From Berberis thunbergii (Eukaryota > Streptophyta > Magnoliopsida > Ranunculales > Berberidaceae): a stretch of DNA of 64,000 nucleotides. Location: positions 124,001 to 188,000 of the forward strand of contig QNQO01001859.1 of the NCBI GenBank assembly GCA_003290165.1, written 5' to 3'. The notes under the pieces were generated by a model. The model made no database searches. It was not told where the DNA came from and saw only the letters and a list, made by a program, of their open reading frames with translations. A program made the translations under genes and the position numbers. Positions 15,816-62,979 of the stretch are shown piece by piece (position 1 is the first letter of the stretch; each line of letters starts with the position of its first letter).

Positions 15816-16916
15816 GATAAACACGAGTAATAATGTTATTTCATTTATAAGACACAATTTTGTCTCTGACACTGTTCAATTATCTATTTATTTTGCTCGT
15901 AAATCTACATTACAATTCAGAATGGTGTTTTACTATTCATTGCTGACTGGGACAAAGTTAAATCATAAAGATTAGAGATAAAAGATGGTTATGATTGAAA
16001 GTTGGGAAATATATTGAATTTGAGGGTTAGATTCATTTTCTATGAAGACATATTTGTAAATATAAAACATGTAGAATGACAAAAATAATGAAAAAACTTT
16101 TGAAAAAAGTTGGTGGAATGTACATGTGGCGAAGAGAGAAAATATTTTGTTTTCCTTTTAGCAAAATGAAAATTATCATAACTATCTACATCGTTGTCGG
16201 ATTTTAATAAACTTAGTATCGTTGAAATGCATTTTTGAAGATCTTTCGAACAAAATCAATGATCAATACAGGAGACAAAATATTAATAATATATATTTCA
16301 TAATTAAATAAACGCATAATGTATTACACATCTTTAATATTTTTAAAAGCAATGAGACGAGCCGATCATACCAGAAAAAATGAATCGGACATCTTAATGC
16401 AAATTTAAACAAAAACCGTAATTTCATGTTTTGGTGAATTCAAAGATTGGGAAGGCCTCATTATCGGCGGTTAAATTTTTTTCCCAACTGATTCAAGTTT
16501 GACTGAATAAGTCTACACTTAGAATTAACTTATACTTCAATACTGATTGAGAGCGAAAATGAGGATAGTGATAGAAGTGTTTAGTATAAAATAATTAAAA
16601 AAATAAAATTATGTGAAGTACCTACTGCGCATGACACATTGTAATATAAAACAAGTGAAAATCAGGACATTTCTACTGAGTACAGATATATTAATAGTAG
16701 TCTAGTGTGGAATGCTCTCAAACTTCCCAAGGCTTTGCATTAATGCATTACTACCTTTTAATATATACAGTATCCTTTATCCCTGAACTCTCTCAGACTC
16801 AAAGCCCACTCAAACTCGAAGACCTAATTTTATCTCTCTTACAAATCCTCGCTTCATTTCTTCTCGCTCTCTCTAGCGATCTCCACTTGATCTTCTTCTT
16901 CTTCTTCAGAGTCTCC
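15816..16916 (+). promoter_or_regulatory. Upstream region and 5' leader of the API5-like gene
   Basis: AT-rich up to about 16700. The last 150 bp before the ATG turn CT-rich, as in many plant 5' leaders. A TTTAATATATACAG stretch near 16758-16771 could serve as a TATA box, with the start of transcription some 30 bp further on. No transposon is recognised here. The promoter call rests on position and composition only. Confidence 0.35.
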
Positions 16917-31900: not shown

Positions 31901-34900
31901 ATTAACTAATTTTACAGCTTCCTGAAGAACGCAAACTTGACTTGCTCAAAAACTTTGCGGAAAGTTCACCTTATACATCACCCCAGGATTCACGGCAGCT
32001 TCTTCCATCAATTGTTCAGCTTTTGAAGGTACACACATTGTCAATGCCATAGAATATTGTATTATATGCCTGGAGGATGCTAATGTTCTTCAGACTACAG
32101 TTGGTTTTATAAAGTTGTGCCAAAAAAAGTTTAATGTTCAACCGATGCTGCAATAGGAACTAAATATTATTAAAGATTGAAGTTTCCGAGGTTTGAGATG
32201 ATTTAAATCAACAACTCTTTTCGATTCACGATTCATGTTGTTGGAGGCTGCATCGAGGCTTCTACTGTGCCTCGCCTCAGCCATGGAGCGTTGTGTTGCC
32301 ATGCATTAGCAGAAGGCAAGCAAGATACCTAAGACACTGCTAGTATTTTTTGGAAAGGTAACTTAAATAACTAGAAAATAAATGATTTTTTCTAGAAAAA
32401 TAAATAGCCCCTAATTAGTTTTTACAGTTCACCCTAAAAAAGGTGAAAGTGAAAAGTTCTAGTCTTCAGAAGAGCTCCTCTGTTGTGGCGTCACACTTTG
32501 CCACGACACTAGTGGGGCCTTGGCGCCTCCCCCCACCAATGTAGGTTGATAACATTGGTTCCACATGCAAAATATAGAAGGGCCATTTGGCAAAATTATG
32601 AGGTCAAAGTTTCGACTTCTGCTATATTAAACCGGTGACTGGATTTTAACCATGGCCTTAGGGTTCTCAACTATTAAAACATAAGGGGGGCACTAGATTT
32701 GCTTATTAACCAGGAAGGTCCTGCTAGATGACCTAGTTATGCAGACTGACTAATGGATTGAAACGCTTCGGTCTACAAATTTGCTTTATAAATTAGATTA
32801 CCCACATCTTTGGCATGTGTCCATTTTTGTCTAACCAATTCCAGTTTATTGTCTAATTTTGATGCAGAAATACATGCCTACGAGAAAGACCGGAGAAGAA
32901 ACAAACTTTACTTATGTTGAATGCTTGTTGTACACCTTTCACCATTTATCCCATAAGGTTAACTGAATTTTCTTGTTCCCATTTTTTTGTTGGTATTCTT
33001 TTTGTAATAATGATCTTGCTAACTACACCTATTAAATTATTGTCATGCAGACTCCTAATGCTACAAATAGTCTTTGTGGTTACAAGATAGTAACTGGCCA
33101 ACCCTCAGACAGGCTTGGCGAGGATTTTTCTGAGCAATATAAGGATTTCACTGAGAGGTACTGTATACTACATACAATACTATGTTTTGGCTATTTTTAA
33201 TAATATATAGATCCAATATTTTGTTGAATGTCCCATCTAAGGAGGGAAATGATTTTACTTATACATTTAGCAGGTCTTCTTGTTCTGAATGTTTCTGTCT
33301 TCAGGGGCCACCTTTAGGTGTGTCTGTTTTTGTTATTCTGGTGGCACCTTTGGATTTCGAAGTTGCTTCCTTTGCAAGGACAGACTTCGGAAGGAAATGG
33401 TAGTTTACTGTCAGAGAGCAAGTTTGGAATGGGGTCCCTTTCTTCAAGTTGAGTCCCTTTGCAGTAAGTTAGAAAGGGGTCACCTTTTTCTAGATGAGTT
33501 CTGAATGACTGTCGAAAGGGACTTCTGTGGTAGTACTTTCCACTACTTGCTTGGAAGTATTCGTAATAATATGAACTACATGAAAAGACAGTTCTATGAC
33601 AGATCACCTTCCAAACCCATTTTAGTGGAAAATTTTATAATTTGTTCATTAGGAAATGTTTTGCTGCTTGCTTTCAAATGTATTTAATGAGCAATTTTCT
33701 TTATCTCATTGACCATATAAAGAGTCTTACCATTTATCCTAGGCCAGTGATTTGAGGGAGAGGGTTTTTATTTATTTTATTTTATTTTATTTTTATTTTT
33801 ATTTTTATTTTTATTTTTATTTTTATTTTTTATAATTTAAATAATGAAGGTCTATTAGTTACCCCACCATCCTCACATATCTAAAACGTGCATCATCCAT
33901 TTCTAAGAAAAAGTGCAAGATTCCAGGAAAAAGCCTAGATGGATTTTGTTTCGTCACATTTGTCAGTTTGATTTATGTGTTGGCATACTATATTGTTAGG
34001 TTTGAGATGCTATTTCACTTGCTTGTGTCATACAAGAATCTTGGGAACCAAATCCGTGAATATACAATCTTTATTTTTCCTCATCGACTGTCCTCGATGT
34101 CTCTTACAAACCTCTTTAATTTGCAAGTTACTTGAGCTTGAGCATACAAAAGATTGGCGTTTCGTATATATATATTTAAGAGGTTTTAACGTGTGTAAGT
34201 CTACAATCTTTAGATATGATATTTTCTTTTTCGAATAACAATTCTTTATCCAGTCTTAATTATCAAAAAACATTTCTTCTGCGATGACAGACCGCAACAT
34301 GCGTGCTATGCACCTATGTGTGTTCACCCCTGAGAGTATGACTTCTAAATGAATAGTTTATAAATAAATCTGAATGTGCCATACTGCTATCCCTCAATCT
34401 TGCAACCTTGAATCTACTAAGCTTTAATTTTAAACTCATTGGCTTTATATGGATTAAGTTGAATGTGCCTACAAAATGGCATAGACCGTCCTTGAGCAGA
34501 TAATTCCTTGATGTTTGGTTTTTTGGTCAAGAACTTATTAAGCTTCTGTAAATCCCTAGAAGTTGGTGTGATTGTGTTGTGTGAAGCATTTTGTATTCCT
34601 GGTGATGGGGAGCTTTTGGATATTCAACTGGTTGCTGTTTCTCGTCTCCCTTTTGCTTCGTTAAATTACCATAAACTGTCAAACAACCATTAATTGTTAC
34701 TGTTACCTTCCATTGTAACGGTGCTATTCCGAATGTTTTAGTGCTATCCCTGTTTTTTGTGTTAACACATGGGACACATTTGTTGTGATACAGGTTAAGC
34801 ACTGTGGAGGACCTTGCTAGGGCTACCATGAAGAAGTTAACCCAGGGGATGAATGAGCATAACAAGGCAATGGCAGCTGCCAAGAATGAAGAAGACAAAG

Positions 34901-35529
34901 CTAGCATTGTGAGTCTTTTCTCTCTGGAGCTGGCATGGAAGATTCTCTTGTTTAGATATCTAGTTAGCATATTTTACATTAATGTTCCATGTACTACAGA
35001 AAATAAAAAAGCAGAACACGACAACAGGATTGCGGACCTGCAATAACATTCTGGCAATGACACAGGTGAGAAAAAAAATACTCTCGTTTTCTTAAAATTT
35101 TCTTTGTTCGAGAGTTTTTTTTTTCCTGAATTAATATGGTCATGCTGTTGATTTCAGCCCTTGAAATCAAAATCACCTTCATTTATTGGAGATAAGAAAA
35201 TCACACTATCATGGAAAGAGACAGTGAAATCTACAGTTCCCTTAGCAACTCCTTCAGCAGGGTACGCTAGAACCTCATCTATTCTCTGGTTTCATATGCG
35301 TTGTATTCATCTGACATGTTTACACACATGTATTTGTTACAGAGGCAAGCGAACTGCTAGTGCTACAAATGGTTCAGGCAATGTAGCTAACAAGAAAGGA
35401 AGGGGTGAGGGTGGGATGCGAAACCAGCTTGTGAACAGGGCATTAGAAGGGTTGTCACGTGGTGGTGGTGGAAGAAGTGGAAGAGGCAGAGGTTGGGGTG
35501 GACGTGGGAGAGGTAGGGGTTACCGTTAA
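16917..35529 (+). CDS. API5: Apoptosis inhibitor 5 (API5/AAC-11)-like protein
   Basis: A nuclear helical-repeat (HEAT/ARM) scaffold protein. Animal API5 counters cell death, and its rice homologue is known for a role in tapetal programmed cell death with DEAD-box helicases. Sixteen exons with consistent phase: 16917-16994, 17108-17269, 27053-27152, 27237-27302, 27993-28090, 28165-28239, 28371-28520, 30188-30256, 30342-30407, 31918-32028, 32868-32957, 33051-33157, 34794-34908, 35000-35065, 35158-35261, 35343-35529; 1,644 nt, 547 residues, close to plant homologues. The N-terminus [36 protein letters not shown] and [19 protein letters not shown] are hallmark segments. The C-terminus is a Gly/Arg-rich RGRG tail after a basic KKGRG stretch, likely nuclear-targeting or RNA-binding. 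No broken codon or splice site was seen. Intron 2 is 9.8 kb and full of transposons; intron 9 holds a hAT-type element. Confidence 0.95.
17339..17694 (-). repeat. 3' LTR of the intronic chromovirus
   Basis: Matches 20380-20734 along its whole length. The last coding frame of the element runs into it (to 17643). Confidence 0.88.
17643..20355 (-). pseudogene. Deleted gag-pol of the intronic chromovirus
   Basis: Reading the minus strand, a gag N-terminus ([17 protein letters not shown], 20355) runs about 58 codons and then joins in frame to RT sequence ([16 protein letters not shown], near 20165): gag, zinc knuckle and protease have been deleted. RT follows at 19994-19551 with FFDDILVYS as its catalytic box and another internal deletion. 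RNase H is at 19554-19273 ([18 protein letters not shown]). Integrase pieces are at 19056-18694, and an intact 235-codon frame at 18350-17643 holds the integrase C-terminus and a chromodomain-like VQWKHLP segment. Confidence 0.85.
20380..20734 (-). repeat. 5' LTR of the intronic chromovirus
   Basis: 355 bp. Its inner border at 20380 abuts the primer-like site at about 20366-20379. Confidence 0.88.
20735..21889. other. API5 intron 2, stretch without recognised elements
   Basis: AT-rich intronic sequence. No terminal repeats or coding similarity were recognised. Confidence 0.5.
22146..23133 (+). mobile_element. 5'-truncated RTE-clade LINE
   Basis: A 988 bp insertion flanked by a perfect 16 bp duplication GATTGAAGGGTAAGTC (22130-22145, 23134-23149). 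It ends in a (GAT)n tail, typical of plant RTE elements, instead of poly(A). It begins in the middle of the reverse transcriptase, as expected for 5' truncation during target-primed insertion. The perfect duplication and open frame make it one of the younger insertions here. Confidence 0.92.
22161..23117 (+). CDS. RTE reverse transcriptase, C-terminal 318 codons (truncated)
   Basis: The frame is open from the truncation point (22146) to the TGA at 23115. Residue 1 given here (ATG 22161) is internal to the original protein. The RT catalytic box is [11 protein letters not shown]; the downstream thumb and C-terminal region keep [32 protein letters not shown] and [11 protein letters not shown], the conserved blocks of RTE proteins. 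The endonuclease and the fingers of the RT are missing, so it cannot be functional, and it has no promoter of its own. Confidence 0.8.
   Translation: MYEGVVTSVRSVGGMSSEFSVSVGLHQGSALVPYLFALVMDELTRHLQEDVPWCMLFADDIVLMDETSAGLSQKLVKWREALESKAFRISRSKEYLVCNFGCEPRGRSNAIEIDGVEVPECDAFQYLGSIIQKNGAIGEDVNHRIKAEWLKWKMASEVLCDRRMPARLKGKCYKTIVRPVMLYGSKCWATMGQHTHRMAVAEMRMLRWMCGKTCKDKIRNERIRRYLGVAPIEDKIRERRLTWFGHVRRRPSTTPIRKCLDWQVNGGCRRRGRSLKTWMKTVNEDIIELGLDEEMWEDRIAWRTKIHVANPENLGNVL
23561..27052. other. API5 intron 2, last 3.5 kb
   Basis: Mostly AT-rich. It contains a short (TTTTA)n-like tract near 24690-24715 and the direct repeat at 25635-25724 (listed separately). Around 26500-26550 there is a short segment resembling LINE/SINE 3' ends (CCCCAACTATTTAGGATTAAG), too short to classify. 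No gene seen. Confidence 0.45.
25635..25724. repeat. 38 bp direct repeat, period 52 bp
   Basis: The 38 bp at 25635-25672 recurs exactly at 25687-25724, separated by 14 bp, in API5 intron 2. Local duplication without other features. Confidence 0.85.
27303..27992. other. API5 intron 4 with possible hAT-family remnants
   Basis: Contains GACACGTATCGTGTCAGATAC near 27548 and ACGTGTCCGACAT near 27801, words like those in the hAT-type elements at 1306 and 31133. No terminal repeats or duplication were found, so a remnant is only suggested. Confidence 0.35.
28521..30187. other. API5 intron 7, nothing recognised
   Basis: 1.67 kb AT-rich intron. I see no terminal repeats, coding similarity or long simple repeats. 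Confidence 0.5.
30419..30568. repeat. 75 bp tandem duplication in API5 intron 9
   Basis: Two head-to-tail copies (30419-30493, 30494-30568) differ at a few positions. It starts 12 bp after the exon 9 donor, so it includes intron-only sequence. Confidence 0.85.
31133..31703 (-). mobile_element. Non-autonomous hAT-type element, 571 bp, second copy
   Basis: Ends CAAGGATGCA and TTCCTTG (inverted), flanked by an 8 bp duplication GAACTAGG/AAACTAGG with one mismatch (31125-31132, 31704-31711). Its reverse complement matches the split element in HGO intron 2 along its length, and the length agrees with the 572 bp obtained there after removing insertions. It lies in API5 intron 9 and has no coding capacity. 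Confidence 0.85.
32029..32867. other. API5 intron 10, nothing recognised
   Basis: 839 bp intron. A locally GC-richer patch (32230-32540) has no recognisable coding or terminal repeats. Confidence 0.45.
33158..34793. other. API5 intron 12
   Basis: 1.6 kb intron. Apart from the TTTTA repeat listed separately, I recognise nothing. Confidence 0.5.
33765..33832. repeat. (TTTTA)n microsatellite
   Basis: About 68 bp of TTTTA and TTTTTA units in API5 intron 12. Confidence 0.95.
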
Positions 35530-48985: not shown

Positions 48986-49714
48986 GTAATTCCTCCCTTT
49001 TATGGTTTGATTCAAAACTATTATTAATTCTTTCTCTCCGATCAATTGTTAGTCACGATTGTGACAATTTCATACCTAACCCACTCGTTTGGTGCTGATA
49101 TCTTTGGGGCAATTATGGGGATTTAGATGGATACATATAAAACCAGTGTTCTAAAAAGTGCTAGGTGCTGGGCGGGCAGCGAGCAGGTGCCTAGGCGGTC
49201 TTAGGTTTTGCATTATAACTTTAATAATTTACAAAAGTTAAGCATAATACCTTATCAATTACATTCAATTTAATGCCAAGATACATATGCAAAATTTAAA
49301 AACATGAAAAATTAACAATCATGAACAAAATTTATTAAAACTCAAATGACTGAAGTTGGTCATGATGGGTACATTATATAAAATTGAATTTGTGGACAAA
49401 TATCCAAACCTACTTTTTTTTTTTTTTCTTCAAATTGCATGAATAACCTCAATCATGTTTGATAAAATCTACATTAGTAAAATTGGTGCCGGCAGATCCT
49501 TTGAGAATTTCATTAAGTAATCATCATTTGCTATAATTAGACATATATTGAATAAAAACAATTAAATAGTTTATTTCTAAAAAAGAGGAAAGAAAAATAA
49601 AATAAAATTAGAACACAATCAGCCTTATTAAAAAAATAAATCGCCCAGACCGCCTAGGCCTCCTAGACCCTGCTTAGGCCGCCCAGCCATTAACACTACA
49701 AAAAAAAGCATTAT

Positions 49715-51610
49715 TAGCTACGGAAATTAGCGACGGTTTTAACAAACCGTCACTATTTAAACACTTTGTGATGGCATAAAACTGTCGTTACTGTTTCTGA
49801 TACGGTTTCGGTACGTAAATAAACAAAACCGTCACTAAATATTTTGCGACGGCTAAAAACTGTCGCTAATACGAGTATTAGCGAGGGTATACGTCCCGTC
49901 GCTACTATATACTAATTAAATTTCATTAGCAACGGTCGATTACCGTAGCTAATCGTTTTTAAAAAATTTTGAAATATACAAAAACCAATGTAGCGACGGT
50001 TCTTTACACAAAAAATTGGTTAGCCACGGTAGCATACCGTAGCTAATCGTTTTTAAATTTTTTTTTTGAAATATCTAAAAACAATTAGCGACGGCGTAGG
50101 AACCATTGCTAGAGTTTAGAAAAAAAAATTGATTAGCCACGGTAGCATACCGTAGCTAATCGTTTTTTTTAAAAAAAATTGAAATTTCTAATAACAATTA
50201 GCGACGGCATAGGAACCGTTGCTAGAGTTTACAAAAAAAAATGGTTAGCCATGGTAGCATACCGTAGCTAATCGTTTTTTTTTTTAAAAATTTAAATTTC
50301 TAAAAACAATTAGCGACGGCATAGGAACCGTTGCTAGAGTTTACAAAAAAAAATTGGTTAGCCACGGTAGCATACCGTAGCTAATCGTTTTTAAAAAAAA
50401 ATTTGAAATTTCTAAAAACAATTAGCAGACGGCTTAGGAACCGTTGCTAGAGTTTACAAAAAAAAATGGTTAGCCGCGGTACCATACCGTATCTAATCGT
50501 TTTTAAATTTTTTTTTTGAAATATCTAAAAACCATTAGCGACGGCATTGGAACCGTTGTTAGAGTTTACAAAAAAAAAATTGAAATTTCTAAAAACAATT
50601 AGCGACGGCATAGGAACCATTGCTAGAGTTTACAAAAAAAAATGGTTAGCGACGGTAGCATACCGTAGCTAATCGTTTTTTAAAAAACAATTTGAAATTT
50701 CTAAAAACAATTAGCAATGGCTTAGGAACCGTTGCTAGAATTTACAAAAAAAATGGTTAGCCACGGTACCATACCGTAGCTAATCGTTTTTAAATTTTTT
50801 TTTTTTTGAAATATCTAAAAACCATTAGCGACGGCATTGGAAGCGTTGCTAGAGTTTACAAAAAAAAATGATTAGCCACGGTAGCTTACCGTAGCTAATC
50901 GTTTTTTTTAAAAAAAATTGAAATTTCTAAAAACAATTAGCGACGACATAGGAACCGTTGCTAGAGTTTACAAAAAAAATGGTTAGCCACGGTACTATAC
51001 TGTAGCTAATCGTTAAATTTTTTTTTAAATATCTAAAAACCATTAGCGACGGCATAGGAACCGTAGCTAGAGTTTACAAAAAAAATTTGAAATATCTAAA
51101 AACAATTAGCGACGGCGTATGAACCGTTGCTAGAGTTTACAAAAAAAAAATTGATTAGCCACGGTAGCATACCGTAGCTAATCGTTTTTTTTTTTAAATT
51201 TGAAATTTCTAAAAACAATTAGCGACGGCATAGGAACCATTGCTAGAGTTAACAAAAAAAAAATGGTTAGCCACGGTAGCATACCGTAGCTAATCGTTTT
51301 TTTTTTTTAAATTTGAAATTTCTAAAAACAATTAGCGACGGCATAGGAACCGTTGCTAGAGTTTACAAAAAAAAAAAATGGTTAGCCATGGTACCATACC
51401 AGAGCTAATCGTTTTTAAAAAAAAAAAATTGAAATATCTAAAAACCATTAGCGACGGCATAGGAACCGTAGCTAGAGTTTACAAAAAAAATTGATTAGCC
51501 AAGGTATGCTACCGTGGCTAATCAATTTTTTTTTAAATTGAAATTTCTAAAAACAATTAGCGATGGCATAGGAACCGTTGCTAGAGTTTACAAAAAAAAA
51601 TTGAAATATA
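49715..51610. repeat. Left subterminal repeat array of the CACTA element
   Basis: About 13 units, mostly 110-120 bp apart, each made of two imperfect palindromes: TAGCCACGGTAGCATACCGT followed by AGCTA, and TAGCGACGGCATAGGAACCG followed by TTGCTA, separated by A/T runs. Units lie near 50025, 50137, 50248, 50358, 50470, 50645, 50759, 50873, 50986, 51157, 51268, 51384 and 51497. Two intervals of about 170 bp look like a lost half unit. Such motifs are the expected binding sites of the accessory CACTA protein. Confidence 0.92.
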
Positions 51611-51689
51611 TAAAAAATAAATTCCATTATCTAATGGTTTTTTTTAAATATATAAAAAATAAATTCCATTAGCTAATGGTTTTTAAAAA

Positions 51690-51712
51690 AATATATATAT
51701 ATATATATATTT
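51690..51712. repeat. (AT)n microsatellite
   Basis: About 11 AT units inside the CACTA element at the inner edge of the subterminal array. Confidence 0.9.
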
Positions 51713-51893
51713 TAAAAGATTTAGCTCAATCAAAAAAATAGCTAAGTTTTACAAAGAATATTTTATTAGCTACGGCAAGTATACCGTCCCTTATAGAATA
51801 TTAAAAAAAAATTAATACAAAAATAGAACCTCATCGCAACTGTCAATAACACCTAAAAACTATATATAGCTTAATCCAACGCACTAAAACAAA

Positions 51894-51960
51894 CCACGTC
51901 ACCGATCAGCGTGAAACCAATTTAACCAATCTCCTTCAATTAACTCTCTCTCTATATAAA
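51894..51960 (+). promoter_or_regulatory. Histone-type promoter fragment (type I element and TATA box)
   Basis: CCACGTCACCGATCAGCG at 51894-51911 matches the plant histone-gene type I element (CCACGTCANCGATCCGCG) at all but one defined position. Two AACCAAT-like words follow (51915-51930), and TCTATATAAA at 51951-51960 is a good TATA box. The element is known from histone H3 and H4 promoters and gives S-phase expression. It points toward the H2B-like coding fragment that starts 14 bp beyond. Confidence 0.5.
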
Positions 51961-51973
51961 TTTAAATTTTACA

Positions 51974-52042
51974 GAGGAGAAGTCCGTCGTGGCAGAGAAG
52001 ACCCCAGAAGCAGAGAAGAAACCCAAATCCAGGATAAAACTC
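51974..52042 (+). pseudogene. Captured fragment resembling the N-terminal tail of histone H2B
   Basis: The frame from 51974 reads EEKSVVAEKTPEAEKKPKSR, like the Lys/Glu/Ala-rich tail of plant H2B, and lies just after a histone-type promoter. No histone fold follows, and the normal ATG and first codons are not present. Low-complexity tails are weak evidence by themselves; the promoter context is what makes histone likely. Another acidic-basic repeat protein is possible. Confidence 0.4.
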
Positions 52043-52596
52043 TCACTTGACACCCATCCCGGCCGCCTTTCCCTAGATGCAAGAGATCTTAGAGATCAGA
52101 GATCTCAGATATTCTCTTTGATATAAGGAGGACGACGGTAGTGCCGTGGTGGTACTATTTGTCCCTTATTCTCTACTCTCTATCGCCTCTGCCCACTACA
52201 ACCCCGCCATCTCCTGCGTGTGTCTTCTTTTTCAAGTGAGAGATAAGGTTTAGTAAATCATAAACAAGGCTAACATTTGTCGAATGTTAAAATTGCATAC
52301 ATTTGTCGAATGTTCTCTTTACCTTATATAATGGTGATTGTTACTTCAGTGCGTGACTTAAGCAAATGAGGCTCATTGAGGGAAAATGTTCTTTGTAATA
52401 GTTTTTTTGAAAGAGAAGCCTTAGAATTTCTTTCAGCTACAGTGTCTTTGATACGGTATAAGCCATCCCTACATCTTACCCATATTCTCTTTGATATTCT
52501 CACCGCATTCCATAACTTTTTTACTCTTTTTTACTAGTTGAAGGGCCTTGGTTTTTATGCAAGGTGAAACATTGTTTCATATTTATAAACTTGCAG

Positions 52597-52665
52597 ACTT
52601 TCTTCATCGGAGGGATTTCATGGGAGACAACAGAGGAGAAGTTCATGGAGCATATCAACAATTAT
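52597..52665 (+). pseudogene. Captured exon fragment of an RRM (hnRNP-like) RNA-binding protein
   Basis: After a splice acceptor (TTGCAG, ending 52596) the frame reads TFFIGGISWETTEEKFMEHI, the first strand (RNP2) and helix of an RRM as in plant hnRNP A/B-like and glycine-rich RNA-binding proteins. The similarity fades after about 23 codons with no clear donor. The rest of the RRM (RNP1) is absent. Confidence 0.55.
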
Positions 52666-52712
52666 CAAGGATTACTAACTCTATATCAATTTTTTTCCTT
52701 TGATTGTTGCAG

Positions 52713-52789
52713 AAGCAACTCCCAAATTTGTCTTTCAACTAATGAATGTGAGAGGACTTAACATTGCCCTTGTTAAAAGCCACTTGCAG
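52713..52789 (+). pseudogene. Captured exon of a GARP/MYB-SHLQ transcription factor
   Basis: A 77 bp exon between an AG acceptor (52711-52712) and a GT donor (52790) reads ATPKFVFQLMNVRGLNIALV then KSHLQ. This is the second half of the GARP (G2-like) DNA-binding domain, whose hallmark is ATPKLVLQLMNVKGLSIAHVKSHLQ-type sequence. A few substitutions (L to F, H to L) are seen. Neighbouring exons are absent. Confidence 0.65.
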
Positions 52790-53049
52790 GTATGGGAATG
52801 ATTTATAATTTATTTTTTGGATCATCTCCTGCATCTTACCCATATCCTCTTTGATACTATTACTGCATTTAAGTCAATTTTTTCTCATATCCTGCATCTT
52901 ACCCATATCATTCATCTTACTGATATCATTTTTTTACTCATATCATTTTATTTTTGATCATCTCCTGCATCTTATCCATATCCTTAATTTTTTCTAGGCC
53001 GAAAGATTGTTTAATTTCTGTAAAACTTGAAGACGCTTTGAATTTGGAC

Positions 53050-53063
53050 GGGGGGGGGGGGGG
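53050..53063 (+). repeat. Run of 14 G
   Basis: Uninterrupted G tract in the CACTA interior, in otherwise AT-rich DNA; see also 56622-56637. Confidence 0.9.
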
Positions 53064-53334
53064 ATTTTTTTGATTGAAAAGGCATGGACACTCCGAATTT
53101 GTCTTTCCAAAATCGTATTTGTTGTTTTTTAATATATTATAAACCTTGAATCAAAATTGGTAAGTTTTAGTTTGTCATTGATTGTAAATCCATGTAATTT
53201 TTTTGCTTATATATATAATATCAATTTGGGGTTGATAGGGCATAAACTTGTTTGGGATTTACAAATAAAAACACTTTGCTACGCTTTATGTCGTCCATAA
53301 GTGTTTATTTGAAAAAAATAATATATTGACGAAA

Positions 53335-53410
53335 ATTTTACTTAGCCACGGTATAATAACTGTAGCTAAGATTTACAAATCTTAGCTATGGTTTTCACTG
53401 TCCCTAATCG
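53335..53410. repeat. Internal copy of the CACTA subterminal motif
   Basis: AGCCACGGTATAATAACTGTAGC and CTTAGCTATGGTTTTCACTG: the same palindromic motif, about 1.8 kb inside the left array. Confidence 0.7.
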
Positions 53411-53499
53411 ATTAAAAAAATTACAAAAAATAAATTCCCAATGGCGCGAATAAAATTGGGAATCCCGTGTAGTTTTGTGAATAAGTGCTTTGAGAAGAC

Positions 53500-53770
53500 G
53501 AAGCAGAAGAAGTGATTTGAGAGGACGAAGCAGTGAGATGAAGAATCATTGAGAGGAAGTGTAATTTTTTAGAGGAAGAAGGTTTGGAAGAGCGATTTTG
53601 AGAGGTCGAAGGTTTGACATCCCGCGTCATGGTATTTTGAGAGGAAGAAGCTCTGCGAGAAAGACCCGCGATTTTCAGGGGAAGAAGCTGTGAGAGGAAG
53701 AAGGTCCGAGAGGAAGAACCCTCGCTTTTGAGAGGAAGAAGGTCTGAGAGGAAGAACCCGTGCTGCGTCA
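53500..53770 (+). repeat. Purine-rich GAGAGGAAGAAG repeats
   Basis: Loose repetition of TGAGAGGAAGAAGGTCTG-type words on the + strand. The long minus-strand frame here is a by-product of the repeat. Confidence 0.65.
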
Positions 53771-53939
53771 CCTGCTTAGGGGCCTGGAATACTTCTGCAT
53801 CCAAGCATTCGGCGCTAATTAGGAAGATCATCTAATTCTTCATCTTCTTCAACTTCAAGGTGGTAGAAATATGGGGTTTTTGTGCTCTAATAAGGGTTCA
53901 AGGTGAGTCAAAATAAAATCTCTCACTTAGGTTTATATT

Positions 53940-54225
53940 GTTTTGCAAATTTTAGTCTAAAGATGGAAGTAGAATTCACAGACTATATATTCTTTTGCAA
54001 ATTTTAGTCTAAAGATGCAAATTTTTTATATTCAAGGTGACTCACAGACTATAGGTTCTTTTGCAAATTTTAGTCTAAAGATGCAAATTGTTTATATTCA
54101 ACGTGACTCACAGACTATATATTCTTTTGCAAAATTTAGTCTAAAGATGCAAATTTTTTATATTGTTTTGTATTGTAAAAGTGGCGAACAACTTCTACAA
54201 TTTCCAAACTGAAAGACTTTTAGTC
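53940..54225 (+). repeat. ~63 bp tandem repeat, about four copies
   Basis: Copies of TTTTGCAAATTTTAGTCTAA followed by AGATGCAAATTTTTTATATT and CACAGACTATA, near 53943, 53993, 54057 and 54120; the first and last are partial. They lie upstream of the CACTA-encoded gene. Confidence 0.8.
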
Positions 54226-56621
54226 TAAAGATGGAAGTATAATTCTTGTAGGAATTCAAGCTTGACGTCTAAACCTTCCCAAGTCTGTTTTCATATATAC
54301 ATACACAAGCTTTAGTTTTTCAGTGTAAAAGTATGATTGTAAAATTTCTTCCATACAATCAAAATATAATTGTCCAAAACTTCAAGATGGACATCTGCAT
54401 TGTAAACATGAGGATAAGTAACCACAAGCCACATGCATGCATTACTATGTTTTCCTGCAACAAGAAAGTGTTAAGCAAAATTGCTAAAAAAAACCATGAC
54501 CTACAAACTACTAACTGCAACAATACTACAACGTCCTCAAACCCAAGCCATGTGAGTTCATTTCAAATGCCTTTCCTTACATGTTCATATTTAGCAAAAC
54601 TTTTTCATGGAGCTCAAGTGGAATTTAATGAATTATTAAATCTTCTTACCATATATAGCAATAGAAGTGGATGGTAGAATGAAGTCAGACCGTCCACACT
54701 TTTGATGTATTTTAACTGCACCAACCAATAGTGAAATGATTGATTAGATTGGTTTTGTTTTGACCATGTTAGTGCCCTGCCTTTCTTGCAATTTTTTGAC
54801 CACGTTAGTCCCTACTATGATGTTGCTTTTTGAACTGATATTTTTTCTATGCATGAATATGTGCAATCTTGAATGTTATAAAAGGTTAAAAAAATCTTGA
54901 GATGAAGCGTCTAACTAAAAGAGGGCAGTTGCATTCTCGAAGAGCAACCTTTTCACAACATGCTTCTACTTCACAAGCTATATCAAGTCAGGAAAGGTCA
55001 CAACATGTGTCTCAAGTATCTCAAACAGATAGTGTAGTCCCTGAGACTATTACTCCCTCTATTGCTGGAGAGGGACAGCCGCTATCTGATGATCAACAAG
55101 ACCTTGGTGACCATGATATGAATGAAATGGACCAACAACTAGAGAGAAGTGCAGATGGACGCCAATCTACAAGGCATATGGAGACAGCTGTTCGTATAGG
55201 TAATGTTTGCTGACTTATCGCAAGTGTATAATTTTTTTTTCCAGCTATGACATAGTTTGAGGAAATCAAATTTATATGTAATAGTCATGTGATATAACTT
55301 ATTTAACTTTGGTGCTATTGGAATTGCAGTACAACGATATATGAAACGTAGGGGTACTCATCAATATGATGTCCCAAACCATTCAAAAATGATGGTGGTG
55401 AAATGCAATGCCTTTGGACAGCCTATCGGCAAGACTGCGGCTAAAGTATCCACTGAAATAGGTATAATCACACGGGATGGAAGTAAAGTGCCTCTTTTAC
55501 CTTGCAAATGGCCGAAGATTTCACAAAATGTGAATGAAACTATTTGGAAGATCATATCGGTAATAGTCTTGCAAGTTTAATAATATACGACATAGCACAT
55601 TCTTCCCAAAACGTATATCTATATTAATTATCGTAGCTTGATATTGATTGGAATCCCACATTTTTGTCACAGGCAAAGTTCCCATTCGAAAACAGTACGG
55701 AGAAAACTAAGGTATTTGTCTATCTTGAGGAGTGATTTTGTTTAAAATTTGATAATTAGTGTTTTTATATATCGTCATGTGATTATATTATACTAAAAAT
55801 AACTTTATTTTTAAATTTGACAGAGATGGGTTCAAACTAAAGCTTGCGATTGTTGGAAATAATGGAAACACTATTTGTTCAGGAATATCATAGGTATGAT
55901 CGACCACTTGAGCAACAATATGAGCACACTGATGATGGGATGGATAAGGCCCAGTGGCGGAAGCTTGTAGAGTATTGGAGGAGCGAAAATTTTAAGGTGT
56001 ATATGCTAAGTACTGTAGTTTTACTAGTACGATAGTTCATATGATTGAAAGGAATTCTAACTGTGAATTTATGTTTGCATGCAGAAAGTCAGTGCACAAA
56101 ATAAAGCAAATCGCGCCCGATTGAAGTTGATTCATCGATGTGGAACCATGTCATTTGCACATAAATGGGAGGAAGAGGCAACACATTTTTTTCTTAATGA
56201 TTTCGATATAAAATGTATGTTATGTGCCATGTAGCTCATATATTACCCCTTAATGCATGAAGATGTAGTAGCTTATGTATATTCTTTTAATGTAATTTGT
56301 ATTATTCCAGAGAAAAGAAAAACCCAAATAGACAAGAACCAGATCGTATGCAAATGTTCAAAGCAACTTACACATTATCTGATGGATTATTCCCTCTGCC
56401 TGAAGCAGCACGGAGATATGTACGTTATATTCTATGGAATTATATGAATGCACCTAGTTAATGTGTTGTTCAAATGTTGTTAACCATCATAAAATGTATT
56501 TGACCATTTATGGTTTATGGGTATGTGCATATGTTTTGATGCAGGAGCAAATGGAACAACTAACACAACCAACAAATGGCCAAGAGGGAATGAATAGGGA
56601 GGAGGCGTTTACAGATGTGAT

Positions 56622-56637
56622 GGGGGGGGGGGGGGGG
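56622..56637 (+). repeat. Run of 16 G
   Basis: Inside the last exon of the CACTA gene; its length decides whether the frame continues into the coiled-coil segment. Confidence 0.9.
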
Positions 56638-56879
56638 ATGGACATGGGAGGGCCAAGATGTATGGGGTTGGCGTCACTCCAAGGATGCTCCGCAATGAAG
56701 ATTGGCAAAATCCTGAGCAAATGAATGCTCTCGTTCAGAGAATGGGGGATGAAGCTAATGCCAACATACGTGAACTAGTGGAATCACATGAGCGTACTAA
56801 GCAATAACTGGTTGTAGCTCATGATGCAACTGCACAGGAGCTCGCAGCTACCACGGAGAATCTAGCAGCCACTGAAGCA

Positions 56880-57045
56880 AATCTCGAGACAACGAAAGCA
56901 AATCTGGAGACAACGCAAGCAAATATGGAGACAACGAAAACAAATCTGGAGACAACGCAAGCAAAACTAGAGACAACACAAGCAAATCTGGAGACAATGC
57001 AAGCAAATCTGGAGACAACACAAGCAAATCTGGAGACAACTAATC
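56880..57045 (+). repeat. 21 bp minisatellite encoding a heptad coiled coil
   Basis: About eight copies of a 21 bp unit (CTGGAGACAACGCAAGCAAA with one further base), each encoding LETTQAN. Leu every seven residues predicts a regular coiled coil, so copy number changes keep the frame. Confidence 0.9.
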
Positions 57046-57211
57046 AGAAGGTAGACACATTGTCCATTAATATTGAGACAATTAGAGCATTCATGAGAAA
57101 CATGCAACCTCTAATGGGATCCGCGATGCAGCCAAGTGAGGTAAGCAATTAAACTTTAACCATACGCACCTAAATACATGAAGATATTCATATATTGTTT
57201 ATATCTTATAG

Positions 57212-58221
57212 GGATAAATACTTCATCAGAGCATCATTCAAAAGATTGGTATCAAACAAATGCGGTTTTTCGTGTCAGGTTGGCAAATTTTTTGTTCTTT
57301 GGAATATTTGCTATCATAATGATTGGTGTCAAGGACCAGAATGACAAAAGAGATTCATGGCACCATGGTGGCTGGATTTTGAAGATTGTAATCTGGGCAT
57401 TGTTCACCGTCCTCATGTTTTGCCTTCCAACTGTTATCATCGATATCTATGGTTAGTGATATTGCTACATGTAGAATTGGTTTTTTCATACAATGTCCTT
57501 TTCACTGATGTTTCTATATATTGTGGGTCACATGTTCATTGCCTTGCTTGCAATTTCAGCTGGATGCTATATTGTGACATTTGCTATAGTTGAGACTTCT
57601 TTTCAATTGGTTCGACCCCTCCGGCCAGGACTTTGGTCTTAATGTTTTCTTTCTTATTATGAGCATGATTCTTGCTTTTGTGTTTGCTGTTATTGCATTA
57701 CATCCACAGGTATGGAATTCACACCAATTAGTATCACAGATGTAGGAAGAGAAAATATTTTGGATTTCAAATTATTTTCAAGATGGCCTCATTTACTCTT
57801 CAGATCATTTGGTTATTGATAGAATGTGTTATTAATGCAACTTTTCTTCATACTTGCTAACACTTGGGACTAGAAATTGCTAAAGAAACTTATTTTTGTC
57901 ACTATTAAAACAGACGGTGGGCTTGAAAGAGTGTGATTTGAGGAGTTGGGACATCTGTTTGTGGCAAACTTAATCTTTTTCGCTTTAAGAATCCTGAGAT
58001 TACAATATTTTAGTTGAGAACTAAAAGGGTGATTTTTGAATATGAAAACAGGTACATGGCAGCCTGTTGCCTGCATCTGTAATTTCAGTGTATTGTGCAT
58101 ACTTATGCTATAGCGCTCTCTCAGTTGAACCTAGAGGTTATGAATGCAATGGACTCCATAAGGATTCTAAAGGAGTCTCTACGGGTACTCTCATTCTTGG
58201 GATGCTCACCACAGTTCTCTC
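57212..58221 (+). pseudogene. Captured exons of a serine incorporator (SERINC/TMS) membrane protein
   Basis: Three exons with their splice sites: 57212-57451 (HSKDWYQTNAVFRVRLANFL, then KDQNDKRDSWHHGGW and hydrophobic membrane segments to VIIDIYG), 57560-57709 (AGCYIVTFAIV... to FAVIALHPQ, with a frameshift near 57592), and 58052 to about 58221 (HGSLLPASVISVYCAYLCYS, STGTLILGMLTTVLSV). SERINC proteins are multi-pass membrane proteins. The exon between the first two (the FGAGxFLLVQ block) is missing, as are the N-terminal third and the C-terminus, so the fragment cannot make a working protein. After 58221 the similarity ends abruptly. Confidence 0.85.
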
Positions 58222-58766
58222 AGTATCATGTTTAAGCTTTTTACAACTCTTTTTTGCATTCTGAAATGAATACTAATCTATTAAGGGCATTAGTGATCTC
58301 AAATTCAGTCTTTAGTTCTGTCTAGGATCTGTTTTTTCATAGCAAAAAGGGAAAAGGAAAAAGAATCCAAGAGCACATAAGGGTCTGAAAGAACTTCAAC
58401 CTAATTGGTCGATAAATCACCTATGTAGATTTTCAAATTTTAAAGTTCAATTAACCATCTTAGTCACCTATGCACGCACTGGACAAACACCCTAAACTAC
58501 TTTATTCGAAATGTTACAACGCACAACACCCCCCATTATCTTAGTCACATTGACAGATATACGTCGTTAACATTCTCCAAACACATTACTTTATATAGTC
58601 ATTGATAAAGTCGAAGCTCTAGATTACAGTTTGGAAGCACATGAGGCTCATTCTGGAGCGATGTAAAACCATACCAGATTGTTATTAAGAAATTCTGGCA
58701 AGCATGCTAAAACTGAAATGGATTTTTTAACGTGGTGATGAATTTACATTGTGCTTGGAGTTTCAG

Positions 58767-59705
58767 ATGGCTTCCGAGTTCTTGGAGGAATCAGATGCAA
58801 AAAACATCTCTAAAACCAAAGTAATTGTATCCTGCCATACTGGTGGGGCAACCCCTTCGAAAGACGACCTCAGCTCTATCGTTGCACACTTGCAATCTAT
58901 TGGAGCAGATATAATCAAAGTTGTCTATGATGCAGTCTACATCACCGGCATAGCACAATTATTTCACTTGCTTTCACATTGCTAGGTCAGGAAAGAAATG
59001 TAATCTCTCCATGGCCTTCTATAGTACATTTCTATGTTGTTCTTCTCATCCTCTTCTTATGCCCATCTACAGGTGCCATTAATTGCCTGTGCAATGGGAG
59101 ATAAAGGTCTTATAAGCCAACTATTGTGCCCAAAGTTTGGGGGATTCTTTATCTATGGAGCTTTAGGTAGCAATCGAATAGTAAATGGTTTACCAAGTTT
59201 GGAGAGTCTGAGACACGTTTCTAAACTTGAGAATGTAAATGCTGATACAAAAGTTTTTGGCCTAATAGCGAATCCAGTAGGTCACAGTAAAGGCCCTCTG
59301 TTGCATAATCCTGCTCTCAGACATGCTGGATATAACGGAGTTTACGTTCCTATGATGGTTGATGACATCAATGAATTATTTAGAGTATATTCTTCTCCTA
59401 ACTTTGCAGGCTTCAGGTGCGGCAAATTTTACTATAATTTACGTTCTAAATCTACTGTTCTGCAAGCTGAGTATTGAATTGGCAATAAATGCATTCTGCT
59501 GGTTTTCATTTCAAATCCTCATTCGTTTTGATTCTTACAGAATAAGCATAAGGCAAACCGAACTATCTCTAGTAGCTTTTGTGATTTAGTTTTGGACTAA
59601 AGTTTTTCTCACATGTTGTTTGTTATCTTGTTGACTTGTAGTGTTGGGATTCCACACAAAGAAGCGGCAGCAAGATGCTGTGATGAAGTTCACCCACTTG
59701 CTAAG
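58767..59705 (+). pseudogene. Captured exons of a dehydroquinate dehydratase / shikimate (or quinate) dehydrogenase gene
   Basis: Exons 58767-58985, 59074-59416 and 59642-59705 cover the end of the dehydroquinase domain (ASEFLEE, KVIVSCHTGGATPS, GADIIKVVYDAVYITGIAQL, then PLIACAMGDKGLISQ) and the start of the dehydrogenase domain (KVFGLIANPVGHSKGPLLHN, GYNGVYVPMMVDD, and IPHKEAAARCCDEVHPLAK with the substrate-binding Lys). All splice sites are plausible. The last codon of the first exon reads TAG where homologues have CAG, a single C to T nonsense change. The GHSKGP motif in place of the usual SHSKSP suggests that the donor was a quinate-dehydrogenase-like paralogue; this is inference. The NADP-binding domain is absent. 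Confidence 0.85.
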
Positions 59706-60032
59706 GTGTCAAAAAATTTTGCACTGTGATTTATTTCAGAATGACGTGAGATTTCATTGTGAGTTGTGCTTAATTTGGTAGCTTGCATTGTAGTCCTAAA
59801 CAAAACTCTAGGCACATTTTTCACTTGATATTGTTTCTATTAAAAGAATACTCAGTTTAAAATGTGGTCTCTAGCTGAGAGGCTCTCTTCTAGTACAATA
59901 TGAACAATAGTTTAAATAAACGATTGTAGGGATGGCTTCTAATGAAAGGTCTGGTGATTTTTTTTTCCTTTGTTTTTATGTTGTTTTGTAATTTCCATGA
60001 AGAAAGAGCTTATTATCTTCTATCTATGGCAG

Positions 60033-62140
60033 GTTGGCTGAAATACAGTCAGAGAGAAAATTAAAGTCACAAAAGCCCAAACCTAAAGCATCTGATGGAA
60101 GAAAACATCTTAGCAGTGTTCGAGTTATTCAACGGAACCTAGTGTATATAATAGGGATACCTTCCAATTTAGCAGATGAAGATGTGGGTGGCTCCTTTAA
60201 GCTATCTATCTGTTCAGTTTCAACTTGTTATCAATTCTTAAATATGTGATAAAGCCACTTGTGATTCTTTGAGTGATTCACACACCCTTTACTTTTTATA
60301 CTGTTTCTAAGCAAGATATTGTGTTATTTAACAGTTGCTTCAGCGTAGAGAATATTTTGCCCAGTATGGGAAGGTTCTAAAAGTGTCTATTGCTCGGACT
60401 GCCGGCGGTGCTATTCAACATTCTCCAAGCAACACATGTAGTGTGTAAGTTTAGTTGTAATCATTTTGAGTTTTTATTTTTATTTTTATTATGCCACACT
60501 ATTGGACAATTCAAAGATGGAAGTATCATTCTAACATATTGCTTATTGTTATACTCATATCATTTTAAACAAATAACTATGTTTTTGTTCAAGTTACCGT
60601 ACAAATCAGAATTCTCACTTTTATGGCCGGGGTTGGTATTATAGAGTTGACTTGCATCTGGTATATTATTTCCTGTAATTCACTATGCGGTTGAGGCACC
60701 GAAAAATATCGTGACTCTTTATTAAGGCCAATTCATCTGAGAGATTTTTGTATTAGTCAAAGAGTCACTATGGTATTGTCTGGACACTTACATTCATGTG
60801 ATAACTATTGGACATTATGAAGCCACCCAAGTACTTTATTATCTTGTTTCTTTCCTTCCTTTTGAACTCGGCTTCTGTCACTCTACTGAATTTCAAGCTT
60901 TTCTCGTTAGGATTGCATGGATATTTTTCTAGATAGGAATATGAGATTATTTGGGGGCATTCACAATTAACTGTTGTATCTTCTTCGATTGAATGGTGAT
61001 TTAATCATGCTAAAATGTTTGCCTTTTGATCTAGAGTTTGGTAATAGAAATGGACTGCGTGATTTTAATTGTTTTACTTTAAGAGTGAGGAATTTCAATT
61101 ATACACATATGTATCTCTGTTGGTCCAGACCTGCAGCAATTCAGATTGTTTATATTTGCATGAAATTGGCACCCAAGAAGATAGTTTTACTAAAGATGAG
61201 ATAATTTCAGCATATTCAAGGTATAAAACAATCCATACACAAACTTTGTGTTAATTTCCTTTAGCTTACTCTGTTGCTGTATTTGTATCTGAGACCATTT
61301 CATATTGCACTTCTGTTACTTCTACTACCTCAATTTTCTTTACATTGGTTTCATCAAATGATGATGTGAATCATAATCTCTTATTTTCGTTCTAGGAACA
61401 GGGTTCAACAAATAACTGACGCAACAAATAATTTGCAACGACGTTCAGGGAATACATTGCCTCCTCCTATGGATGATTTTGGCGTCATCTACACTGCTCC
61501 TGCGAAACCTATTGCTAAATTAACCACAAATGTATGACCTTCATTCTATTTTTACATTGAATTTCAATGTGCAGCTGATGGAACAACATGAACCCCTGTT
61601 TATTTGATACTCAATATTTGCTTGTTGACTTGATGTTTTGCAATCAGTTTATTTCATGTCATGACTTGGTTATTATTTCCTACAGAATCCCGGTAGCCAT
61701 CCTAAGGTTCTCCTCCTAATGGTAGCTCTGGCAGATCTGCTGCTCTTCCAGCTGTAGCCTCATGGTATGCTATACGTTGTCGTTGATTTTCTTTTTATTT
61801 GTCGTATGGGGCTCTCAATTGAACGTTTTTAACTTTGATTGGTAGGGGGTTGCGCGTTTCAAATGGCAGGCCACCAACTGCAAGTTCAACTGGTTTGAGT
61901 GAACCGGCCAGACAGGGGGTAGATACATGCAATGGTTCATCCACAACAGTCACTGGAAACACAATTCAGGGATCCACATTGTATTCAGATGTAGGTATAA
62001 AGTCATTTGAAAATGAAGAAAGTCAGGTCCAACATTCTAATGGTGGGTTAGGGTAGTTAGAATCTTCAAAGCAGTATGATGGTAAAGATGTTCAAGCAGC
62101 TGCATCAGATTTACTTGCAGATTCAGCCGTGCACTTGTAG
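60033..62140 (+). pseudogene. Captured exons of a NOT4-like (CCR4-NOT subunit 4) gene
   Basis: Exons: 60033-60183 (LAEIQSERKLKSQKPKPKAS, SVRVIQRNLVYIIGIPSNLA), 60335-60444 (LLQRREYFAQYGKVLKVSIA), 61129-61220 (CSNSDCLYLHEIG, EDSFTKDEIISAY), 61396-61531 (RVQQITDATNNLQRRSGN), 61686-61764 and 61846 to about 62140. NOT4 is an E3 ubiquitin ligase with a RING finger, an RRM and a CCCH zinc finger. The RING exons, and the exon with the second half of the RRM (expected between 60444 and 61129), are missing. There is a frameshift near 61707 and an in-frame TAG at 62054-62056, after which the frame reads on to a second TAG at 62138-62140. Confidence 0.85.
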
Positions 62141-62379
62141 TTTAGAAATCACTTGCTACTATGTTCCATAGACGATCACTATGATTTATGTAATTATTTA
62201 ATTTTAATTGAGTTATATCTCAATTTGAGGTTGACAGAGTATTTGGGATTGTATTTTTTTGTGATGGACAATTTATTGATTATACAAAAATTAATATAAA
62301 TTTTTTTCAGGTTTAAGATGTTTATTCTAAATGATATAAAAAGGATATGCCAAATCTGAAAATTAATTTAATTTAATTA

Positions 62380-62905
62380 AATTTTTTTTTGCGACGGCAA
62401 CAACCGTTACAGTTTTGTCAAATTTATTTGATTTTAACTAGCCACGGCTAACTGCAGTCGCTAATGTTATTTGGATTTTGTACTTAGCGACGGCAAGAAG
62501 TCGTTGCTAACTAGCCACGGTAGCATGTCGTCGCTAAGGGTTGTTTGGATTTGGAATTTAGCAATGACACGATGCTGTCGCTAAGTAGACACGGTAACAT
62601 GCCGTCACTATTCACTATTTAGAATTGTAACATTAGCCACGACAACAAAGCCGTCGCTACATAGCCATGGTGAAAGGTCGTCGCTAATGTTCAATTTAGC
62701 CTTGGTAAAAGGTCGTCGCTAATGTTCCATTCAGCGACGGTTGTTAGCTGTAGCAAATTAGCCACGAGCAGTTTGTCGTGGCTGATTCAATCAGCAACAA
62801 TTGCTACAACTACGGTATTGCGACGGTTCGTGGGCTATTACTGATGAATTTTAGCTACGGTTTTCGGAACATTAGCAACGGTTGTTTACCGTTGCTAATG
62901 TCAAA
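62380..62905. repeat. Right subterminal repeats of the CACTA element
   Basis: About twenty irregularly spaced AGCGACGG/AGCCACGG motifs and complements (for example TAGCCACGGTAGCATGTCGT near 62514). They share the core with the left array but not its regular 110 bp unit. Confidence 0.9.
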
Positions 62906-62979
62906 AATTTTTGTAGTGTAAATCTGGGCGGTTTTTTACATTCTGTGCTTAGACCGGTTTTTAGAACACTGAATAAAAC

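Follow-up and report, generated by a model that had tools for sequence, protein, structure and literature searches.

Origin and orientation of captured gene pieces in a CACTA element of Berberis thunbergii, a probable member of a cargo-carrying family

How does a DNA transposon come to hold pieces of several unrelated host genes, all of them reading the same way? This question is raised by a CACTA (En/Spm) element in a 64,000-nucleotide stretch of the Berberis thunbergii genome (contig QNQO01001859.1, C1859:124001-188000, hereafter the window; host assembly of 2.24 Gb in 11,732 contigs). The element occupies positions 49694-62918 of the window (13,225 bp), and every gene piece in it reads on the + strand. 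Comparison with other copies in the same assembly makes it highly probable, in our judgement, that the element is a non-autonomous copy in a CACTA family of many copies, whose cargo was captured by its ancestors, and the one-way cargo characterises the family members examined rather than the window copy alone.

A multi-copy family and the age of its cargo

The features of the element, in window positions, are as follows.

49691..49693, no strand: TAA target site duplication, left copy (right copy at 62919-62921)
49694..51604, + strand: left terminus CACTACAAAAA and subterminal array with a unit of ~112 bp and 40 TAGCNAYGG motifs
51890..52060, + strand: putative histone-type promoter motif and H2B-like N-tail fragment
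52597..52680, + strand: RRM exon fragment of hnRNP type, weak, with acceptor AG
52713..52789, + strand: GARP/Myb-SHAQKYF exon with both AG and GT splice sites
54813..54816, no strand: TNPD deletion junction (Transposase_21 and DUF4216 lost), from comparison with C78 and C173
54902..57150, + strand: TNPA-like gene (Transposase_24), broken by stops and a frameshift
57279..58463, + strand: SERINC fragment, three exons, with an expected exon between the first two absent
58470..59766, + strand: dehydroquinase/shikimate dehydrogenase (DQD/SDH) fragment, three exons in the window copy, the first closed by a TAG
60033..62140, + strand: NOT4 fragment, six exons, with one expected exon absent at 61103-61122
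62380..62918, + strand: right subterminal array and terminus TTTTTGTAGTG

Genome searches returned 2137 candidates for the left end, 3647 for the H2B/RRM/GARP block, 178 for DQD, 644 for SERINC and 241 for NOT4, and 40 candidate places were scored for each, the window itself being one of the 40. The first 407 bp of the left end matched at all 40 scored places with 76-99% identity, and so did the H2B/RRM/GARP block and the SERINC, DQD and NOT4 pieces (40/40 each), with main matches mostly at 89-99%; the 40 places matched by DQD include one source-type gene. Copy counts are inflated by haplotype pairs (C1859/C10886, C19/C4996 and C617/C8535): C10886, whose flanks are the same as those of the window, was rejected as an independent sibling and is taken as the other haplotype, and C19/C4996 and C617/C8535 were likewise rejected as separate elements.

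Because the pieces match at all 40 scored places, their capture is assigned to ancestors and not to the window copy; the cargo is older than this copy. An earlier note on this DNA had the 13.2-kb copy do the collecting, in six captures, and this has to be given up, since the 5' block recurs at every scored place, as does each of the large pieces on the 3' side. Sibling elements with the same ends, whose absence the note had named as a refutation, are abundant in the assembly.

The relatives have kept different parts. C19 retains TNPD together with part of SERINC and lacks TNPA; C617 has kept TNPD, DQD and NOT4; and C1579 has kept TNPA, SERINC, the end of DQD and NOT4. Within SERINC, C3833 has ~525 bp more than the window, 31/40 places differ by ~348 bp at 57867/57868 (loss and gain being alike possible), and matches stop at 58463 or 58464 in the scored places that reach there, except in the window and its allele. 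Within NOT4, many copies have ~330 bp more where the window misses the expected exon (61103-61122). These extra stretches of SERINC and NOT4 presumably contain the exons that the window lacks, and the flanking matches overlap by 7 bp at the SERINC site and by 20 bp at the NOT4 site, as from deletions between short repeats. In C78 and C173 the order is left part, TNPD, DUF4216, TNPA, and TNPD sits between sequence matching the window up to ~54780-54788 and sequence matching it from 54818; as the window joins 54813 to 54816 where both relatives hold TNPD, TNPD has been deleted from the window copy. On these alignments the window element appears to be a deletion derivative of a multi-copy family whose ancestors already had the cargo.

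The ancestor would have had the order left array, H2B/RRM/GARP block, TNPD, TNPA, cargo and right array, and would have taken up genomic stretches, introns included, from several host genes, of which a source-type gene is seen for DQD/SDH and the others are presumed. Its copies would then have spread, each losing different internal parts, and the window copy, having lost TNPD and some internal stretches, would now depend on a helper for its movement.

Ends, transposase genes and captured pieces

Both ends can be read directly, TAA followed by CACTACAAAAA at 49694 and TTTTTGTAGTG followed by TAA at 62918, and the coordinates that the earlier note gave for them are correct. Terminal inverted repeats starting with CACTA are present in the window element and in five relatives, and the 3-bp target site duplication is TAA/TAA in the window and in its allele C10886, TCT/TCT in C19 and C4996, and AGT/AGC, with a differing third base, in C617 and C8535. 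The window element also has subterminal repeats: besides the 40 motifs of the left array, TAGCNAYGG occurs seven times in the right array (0.54 kb), and it is absent from both flanking stretches searched (4,694 bp on the left, 1,082 bp on the right). A single copy of the subterminal repeat with its TAGCNAYGG lies at 53320-53430, directly to the right of the H2B/RRM/GARP block, so that the block looks as if it had been inserted inside the left array.

The TNPA-like gene of the window matches Transposase_24 at 3.8e-21 when its exons are joined with an X at one stop. TNPD is encoded within the family (Transposase_21 5.6e-98 and DUF4216 1.1e-21 in the relatives), being present in C19, C617, C78 and C173 and missing from the window copy, and it is 42-62% identical to the 120 proteins listed. 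Stops in TNPD number 0 in C78 (490 residues compared), 1 in C19, 2 in C617 and 3 in C173, and the TNPA of C78 is interrupted by another CACTA element. The window copy is thus non-autonomous, without TNPD and with a broken TNPA-like gene; the family as a whole may differ in this respect, as cargo-bearing relatives have TNPD, though with the stops just given for C19, C617 and C173.

Captured host coding DNA between the ends is indicated by profile and PDB matches and by the DQD/SDH source-type gene. The SERINC piece matches Pfam Serinc at 2.7e-16 and 2.5e-14; the DQD/SDH piece matches DHquinase_I at 2.3e-10, Shikimate_dh_N at 6.6e-9 and PDB chain 6bmb at E 8.2e-32; the NOT4 piece matches CNOT4 (PDB 2cpi) at E 6.6e-11; and the GARP piece matches PHR1 (PDB) at E 6.8e-4 for the whole chain and 0.0014 for the stretch. 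The RRM piece is weak, since its E of 2.5e-4 with hnRNP A1 (PDB) is a whole-chain value that sums two RRMs, the best single stretch reaching 0.19, and the open reading frame (ORF) concerned has no Pfam match. The H2B-like piece is the weakest identification of all; it comprises the motif ACGTCACCGATCAGCG at 51896, which we take to be a histone-type promoter motif, and a tail that was recognised by eye and has no PDB match. Splice sites placed by homology are AG/GT in 25/25 cases, a mildly circular figure because the placement was itself guided by AG/GT, and frameshifts and stops are present in the cargo and in TNPA of the window copy. For the DQD/SDH part, the highest protein identities among the matches listed are 68-70%, to Aquilegia, Coptis and Macleaya, and the best E-value among them belongs to a Hevea protein; none of the 120 proteins listed is an annotated fusion, and none covers >50% of the joined query. 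The element is a Pack-CACTA element of the Tgm-Express1 type, a kind already known. With these ends, arrays, broken Transposase_24 gene and Pfam or PDB matches, the description of the locus in the earlier note as a Pack-type CACTA element with a TAA duplication and pieces of unrelated genes holds, the RRM and H2B-like pieces being its softest parts.

A source-type gene elsewhere in the genome is seen for DQD/SDH only. A DQD/SDH gene on C1929 matches residues 67-514 of the 514-residue Aquilegia protein P0002, whose first 66 residues have no match in the 6 kb fetched around it. The element copies align to this gene, in exons and introns alike, between positions 1242 and 2845 of the stretch fetched, with ~91% identity over the main block, and the match ends within introns on both sides. 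This gene may be the source of the captured piece or a close paralogue, and because exons and introns both match it, genomic DNA is the likely source, as the earlier note had proposed from the retained introns. Parent loci lying together, an arrangement that would have spoken against capture, were not seen: SERINC has no match in the 6 kb around the C1929 gene, a comparison in which NOT4 was not included. For SERINC and NOT4, all 40 scored places each look like element copies.

The DQD match ends at 59897-59901 in 24/40 scored places, and at four loci, L044-L047 (C7305, C687, C6322 and C152, the last two nearly identical), the DQD piece and an upstream exon have flanks unlike those of the window, so the DQD piece appears also to travel outside the window's arrangement. 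At L045 (C687), a CACTA-type terminus (CACTACTACAGATATAGG, with TAGCGCTT repeats) lies beside the DQD copy at ~3139-4200, and the sequence after the CACTACTACAGATATAGG terminus resembles, by eye, a plasma-membrane proton ATPase.

Orientation of the cargo and its possible causes

We counted the orientation of fragments with some Pfam or PDB support in three elements (the window element, C10022 and C173); the count was made after the pattern had been noticed, and the elements were not sampled at random, being the top-ranked ones of a single search whose size allowed them to be fetched. All of the supported fragments (10/10) lie on the transposase strand, namely RRM, GARP, SERINC, DQD/SDH and NOT4 in the window, a kinase, an MCM and a Tra1/TRRAP piece in C10022, and a CDC48-type AAA piece and an aspartyl protease in C173. 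The CDC48-type AAA piece is also recognised in C10022 by its similarity to C173 and is counted once, and two of the ten are weak, the RRM and the kinase piece (26.4 bits vs a Pfam cut-off of 31.7). The remark in the earlier note that all fragments share the strand of the element's own gene thus stands and extends to relatives; its chance of 1 in 32 applied to one element only, and with the two relatives the figure becomes 2^-10 (~0.001) if the fragments are independent. IFRD-like (C19), AP2-like and TRAPP-like (C173) pieces were placed on the sense strand by eye and, being unsupported, were excluded from the ten.

A strand-wise scan of ORFs of at least 48 residues, with the C1217 insertion and the C78 tail outside it, found 11 Pfam families on 117 sense ORFs and one on 74 antisense ORFs (E up to 0.003); C742 (L035), later recognised as a nested element, supplied 29/117 of the sense and 26/74 of the antisense ORFs. 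Apart from RRM_1, which is untraced, each of the 11 sense families could be assigned to a locus that is not L035, and PCM1_C (2.5e-4), which falls on an AP2-like stretch of L049 (AP2 itself 0.06), is probably a chance match. The sole antisense match, Vps62 (1.8e-4), is weak and untraced, 54/74 antisense ORFs having been re-scanned without recovering it.

Two stretches were rejected as family cargo, the 8.3 kb of C742/C8911 and the tail of C78, in each of which another CACTA terminus lies inside TNPA (C742r 1636 and C78r 6028). The former is a third CACTA element (CACTACACCAAAAGG), at L035 (C742) reversed 1636, equivalent to window 54922, with L036 (C8911) as its haplotype pair. Towards the far end of the fetched L035 piece, an RRM-like stretch is visible by eye. 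The C78 tail element has its terminus CACTACAACAAATTTG at L038 reversed 6028, with GGCGCTTT/AAAGCGCC repeats, and its cargo matches MtN3_slv (SWEET-type, 2.1e-4) and Sugar_tr (0.002), both below the Pfam cut-off; the two pieces share a strand, which is the antisense strand of the C78 host element. This tail element neither supports nor contradicts the bias, save that its pieces agree with each other.

Is the orientation maintained by selection on present copies? Changes at codon positions 1, 2 and 3 number 20/432, 10/431 and 14/427 between the window and C617 (non-exon 53/2146); 21/524, 22/524 and 25/516 against C1579 over 54816-58326, which is mostly TNPA (non-exon 51/1918); 2/116, 3/115 and 4/114 against C1579 over 59405-60517 (non-exon 13/766); 3/98, 2/98 and 6/97 against C19 (non-exon 15/540); and 8/1027, 14/1024 and 18/1017 against the allele C10886 (non-exon 59/7598). 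Third positions are slightly more changed in the C1579, C19 and C10886 comparisons, not in that with C617, and first and second positions together fall below the non-exon rate only for C19 (5/196 vs 15/540, a difference within error), which leaves no clear sign of constraint on coding. For splicing, 14 copies and the C1929 gene were supplied, and in the 12 copies with coverage (which include the haplotype pair C742 and C8911) changed bases number 3/160 at splice sites, 178/7148 in introns and 237/7226 in exons. Selection on coding or splicing among the copies is thus not supported, nor is the selection for readable chimeric transcripts that the earlier note had suggested. With no clear coding or splice constraint, a present function of the fusions is disfavoured, and any filter would have acted at gain.

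We tentatively attribute the one-way cargo to such filtering at the time of gain, an explanation to which we give slightly less than an even chance. The family genes run from the left end, and cargo lies both upstream and downstream of them; cargo in sense orientation would offer usable GT-AG introns and no antisense transcription, and would thereby disturb the transposase transcripts least and attract the least silencing. Several points weigh against this account or the family history on which it builds. The splice sites show no clear excess of conservation over introns (3/160 vs 178/7148); in grapevine, one CACTA element has a PPR piece on the opposite strand, downstream of its transposase (PMC2528002); both transposase genes are whole in none of the relatives examined; and the source genes of SERINC, NOT4, RRM, GARP and H2B were not found, which makes these sources unseen rather than absent.

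The main alternative to filtering is directional capture, in which the insertion of host DNA is itself strand-biased, for instance through transcription of both donor and acceptor, or through nascent unspliced RNA that serves as guide or template in break repair. The ten of ten fragments on one strand, the absence of clear later selection and the retained introns, which are as compatible with unspliced RNA as with DNA, speak for it; the DQD match to the source-type gene, however, ends inside introns on both sides and not at splice sites, and the grapevine case shows the opposite strand (PMC2528002). On balance we regard directional capture as unlikely. A broader proposal, that host fragments are captured or retained with a strict strand bias relative to the transposase genes, whether they lie upstream or downstream of those genes, and that the bias was set at gain, perhaps by break repair coupled to transcription or guided by unspliced RNA, is possible but doubtful; the bias is dated to gain because no clear later selection was seen. 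A family-wide directional bias of cargo is in any case a testable novelty.

Chance or shared descent would require fewer independent events, with co-oriented blocks taken over jointly from other Pack elements. Such transfer would fit the DQD piece, with its recurrent ends at 59897-59901 (24/40) and its four loci with other flanks, and the CDC48-like piece common to C10022 and C173, but the ten fragments go back to ten different genes, C10022 and C173 carry cargo unlike that of the window, and we consider this origin improbable. Far less credible is a functioning chimeric gene under selection: open exon pieces, canonical homology-placed splice sites, the slightly more changed third codon positions (C1579, C19 and the allele C10886) and the chimeric splicing of CACTA cargo known in soybean (PMC1947982) are in its favour, yet the cargo and TNPA carry frameshifts and stops, changes at first and second codon positions are no rarer than in non-exon sequence and the splice sites are not clearly constrained. 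A decayed native gene cluster lying by chance between CACTA ends, to which retained introns and a kept exon order might have pointed, is refuted for the whole block by the multi-copy siblings, with the same pieces at many loci and between the same ends in relatives, and by a DQD/SDH gene elsewhere that has no SERINC match in the 6 kb fetched, and can hardly be entertained.

The mechanism by which DNA transposons take up host-gene pieces is unsettled, and maize Helitrons are a case in which an orientation bias is known. Many copies, several cargos, a source-type gene and a transposase as marker of direction here allow capture orientation to be counted, not guessed, and if the bias holds genome-wide, strand-blind models of capture must add a filter at gain or a directional step.

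Elsewhere in the window, at 16701-35529, a series of ORFs looks by eye like the scattered exons of a single API5-type gene, separated over ~19 kb by ORFs of retrotransposons.

Comparison with known systems

No published orientation bias for CACTA cargo was found in the literature searched: the word orientation has 0 occurrences in the available text of a review (PMC13317346), the corresponding text of two maize papers (PMC2773423 and PMC3288121) contains no count of captured-piece orientation, and PMC8903248, where available, discusses the orientation of elements and ends and not that of captured gene pieces.

Pack-CACTA and other Pack-TYPE elements (PMC8903248) are, like the window copy, non-autonomous elements with terminal inverted repeats and captured coding DNA, often from several loci, and element width correlates with the number of captured loci; they differ from the window family, whose relatives have transposase genes next to the cargo. 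The Tpn1 family of Ipomoea nil (PMC8195511) resembles the window family in its many types, common subterminal regions and wide range of captured pieces, for which the available text gives no orientation. Cactavine-5 of grapevine (PMC2528002) is also a CACTA element with captured gene sequence downstream of its transposase gene, but its PPR piece has the opposite orientation. The Jozin CACTA elements of Chenopodium (PMC8978399) have captured fragments upstream of the first transposase gene, as in the window, and some have Transposase_24 beside Transposase_21, whereas their fragments are few and short, with no comparable multi-gene cargo described in the text available.

The nearest known case is Tgm-Express1 of the soybean wp allele, a 5.7 kb CACTA element that holds parts of five unrelated genes, exons as well as introns (PMC1947982). 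Its cargo forms cassette exons in the host F3H transcript, and as the introns of its CDC2 and FPK pieces are spliced out (PMC1947982), those pieces share one orientation. Both Tgm-Express1 and the window element thus belong to the CACTA superfamily and carry exonic and intronic pieces of unrelated genes; whereas no transposase gene is described for Tgm-Express1 in the available text, the window element, at 13.2 kb, still has a TNPA-like gene, though a broken one, and its family combines TNPD with cargo.

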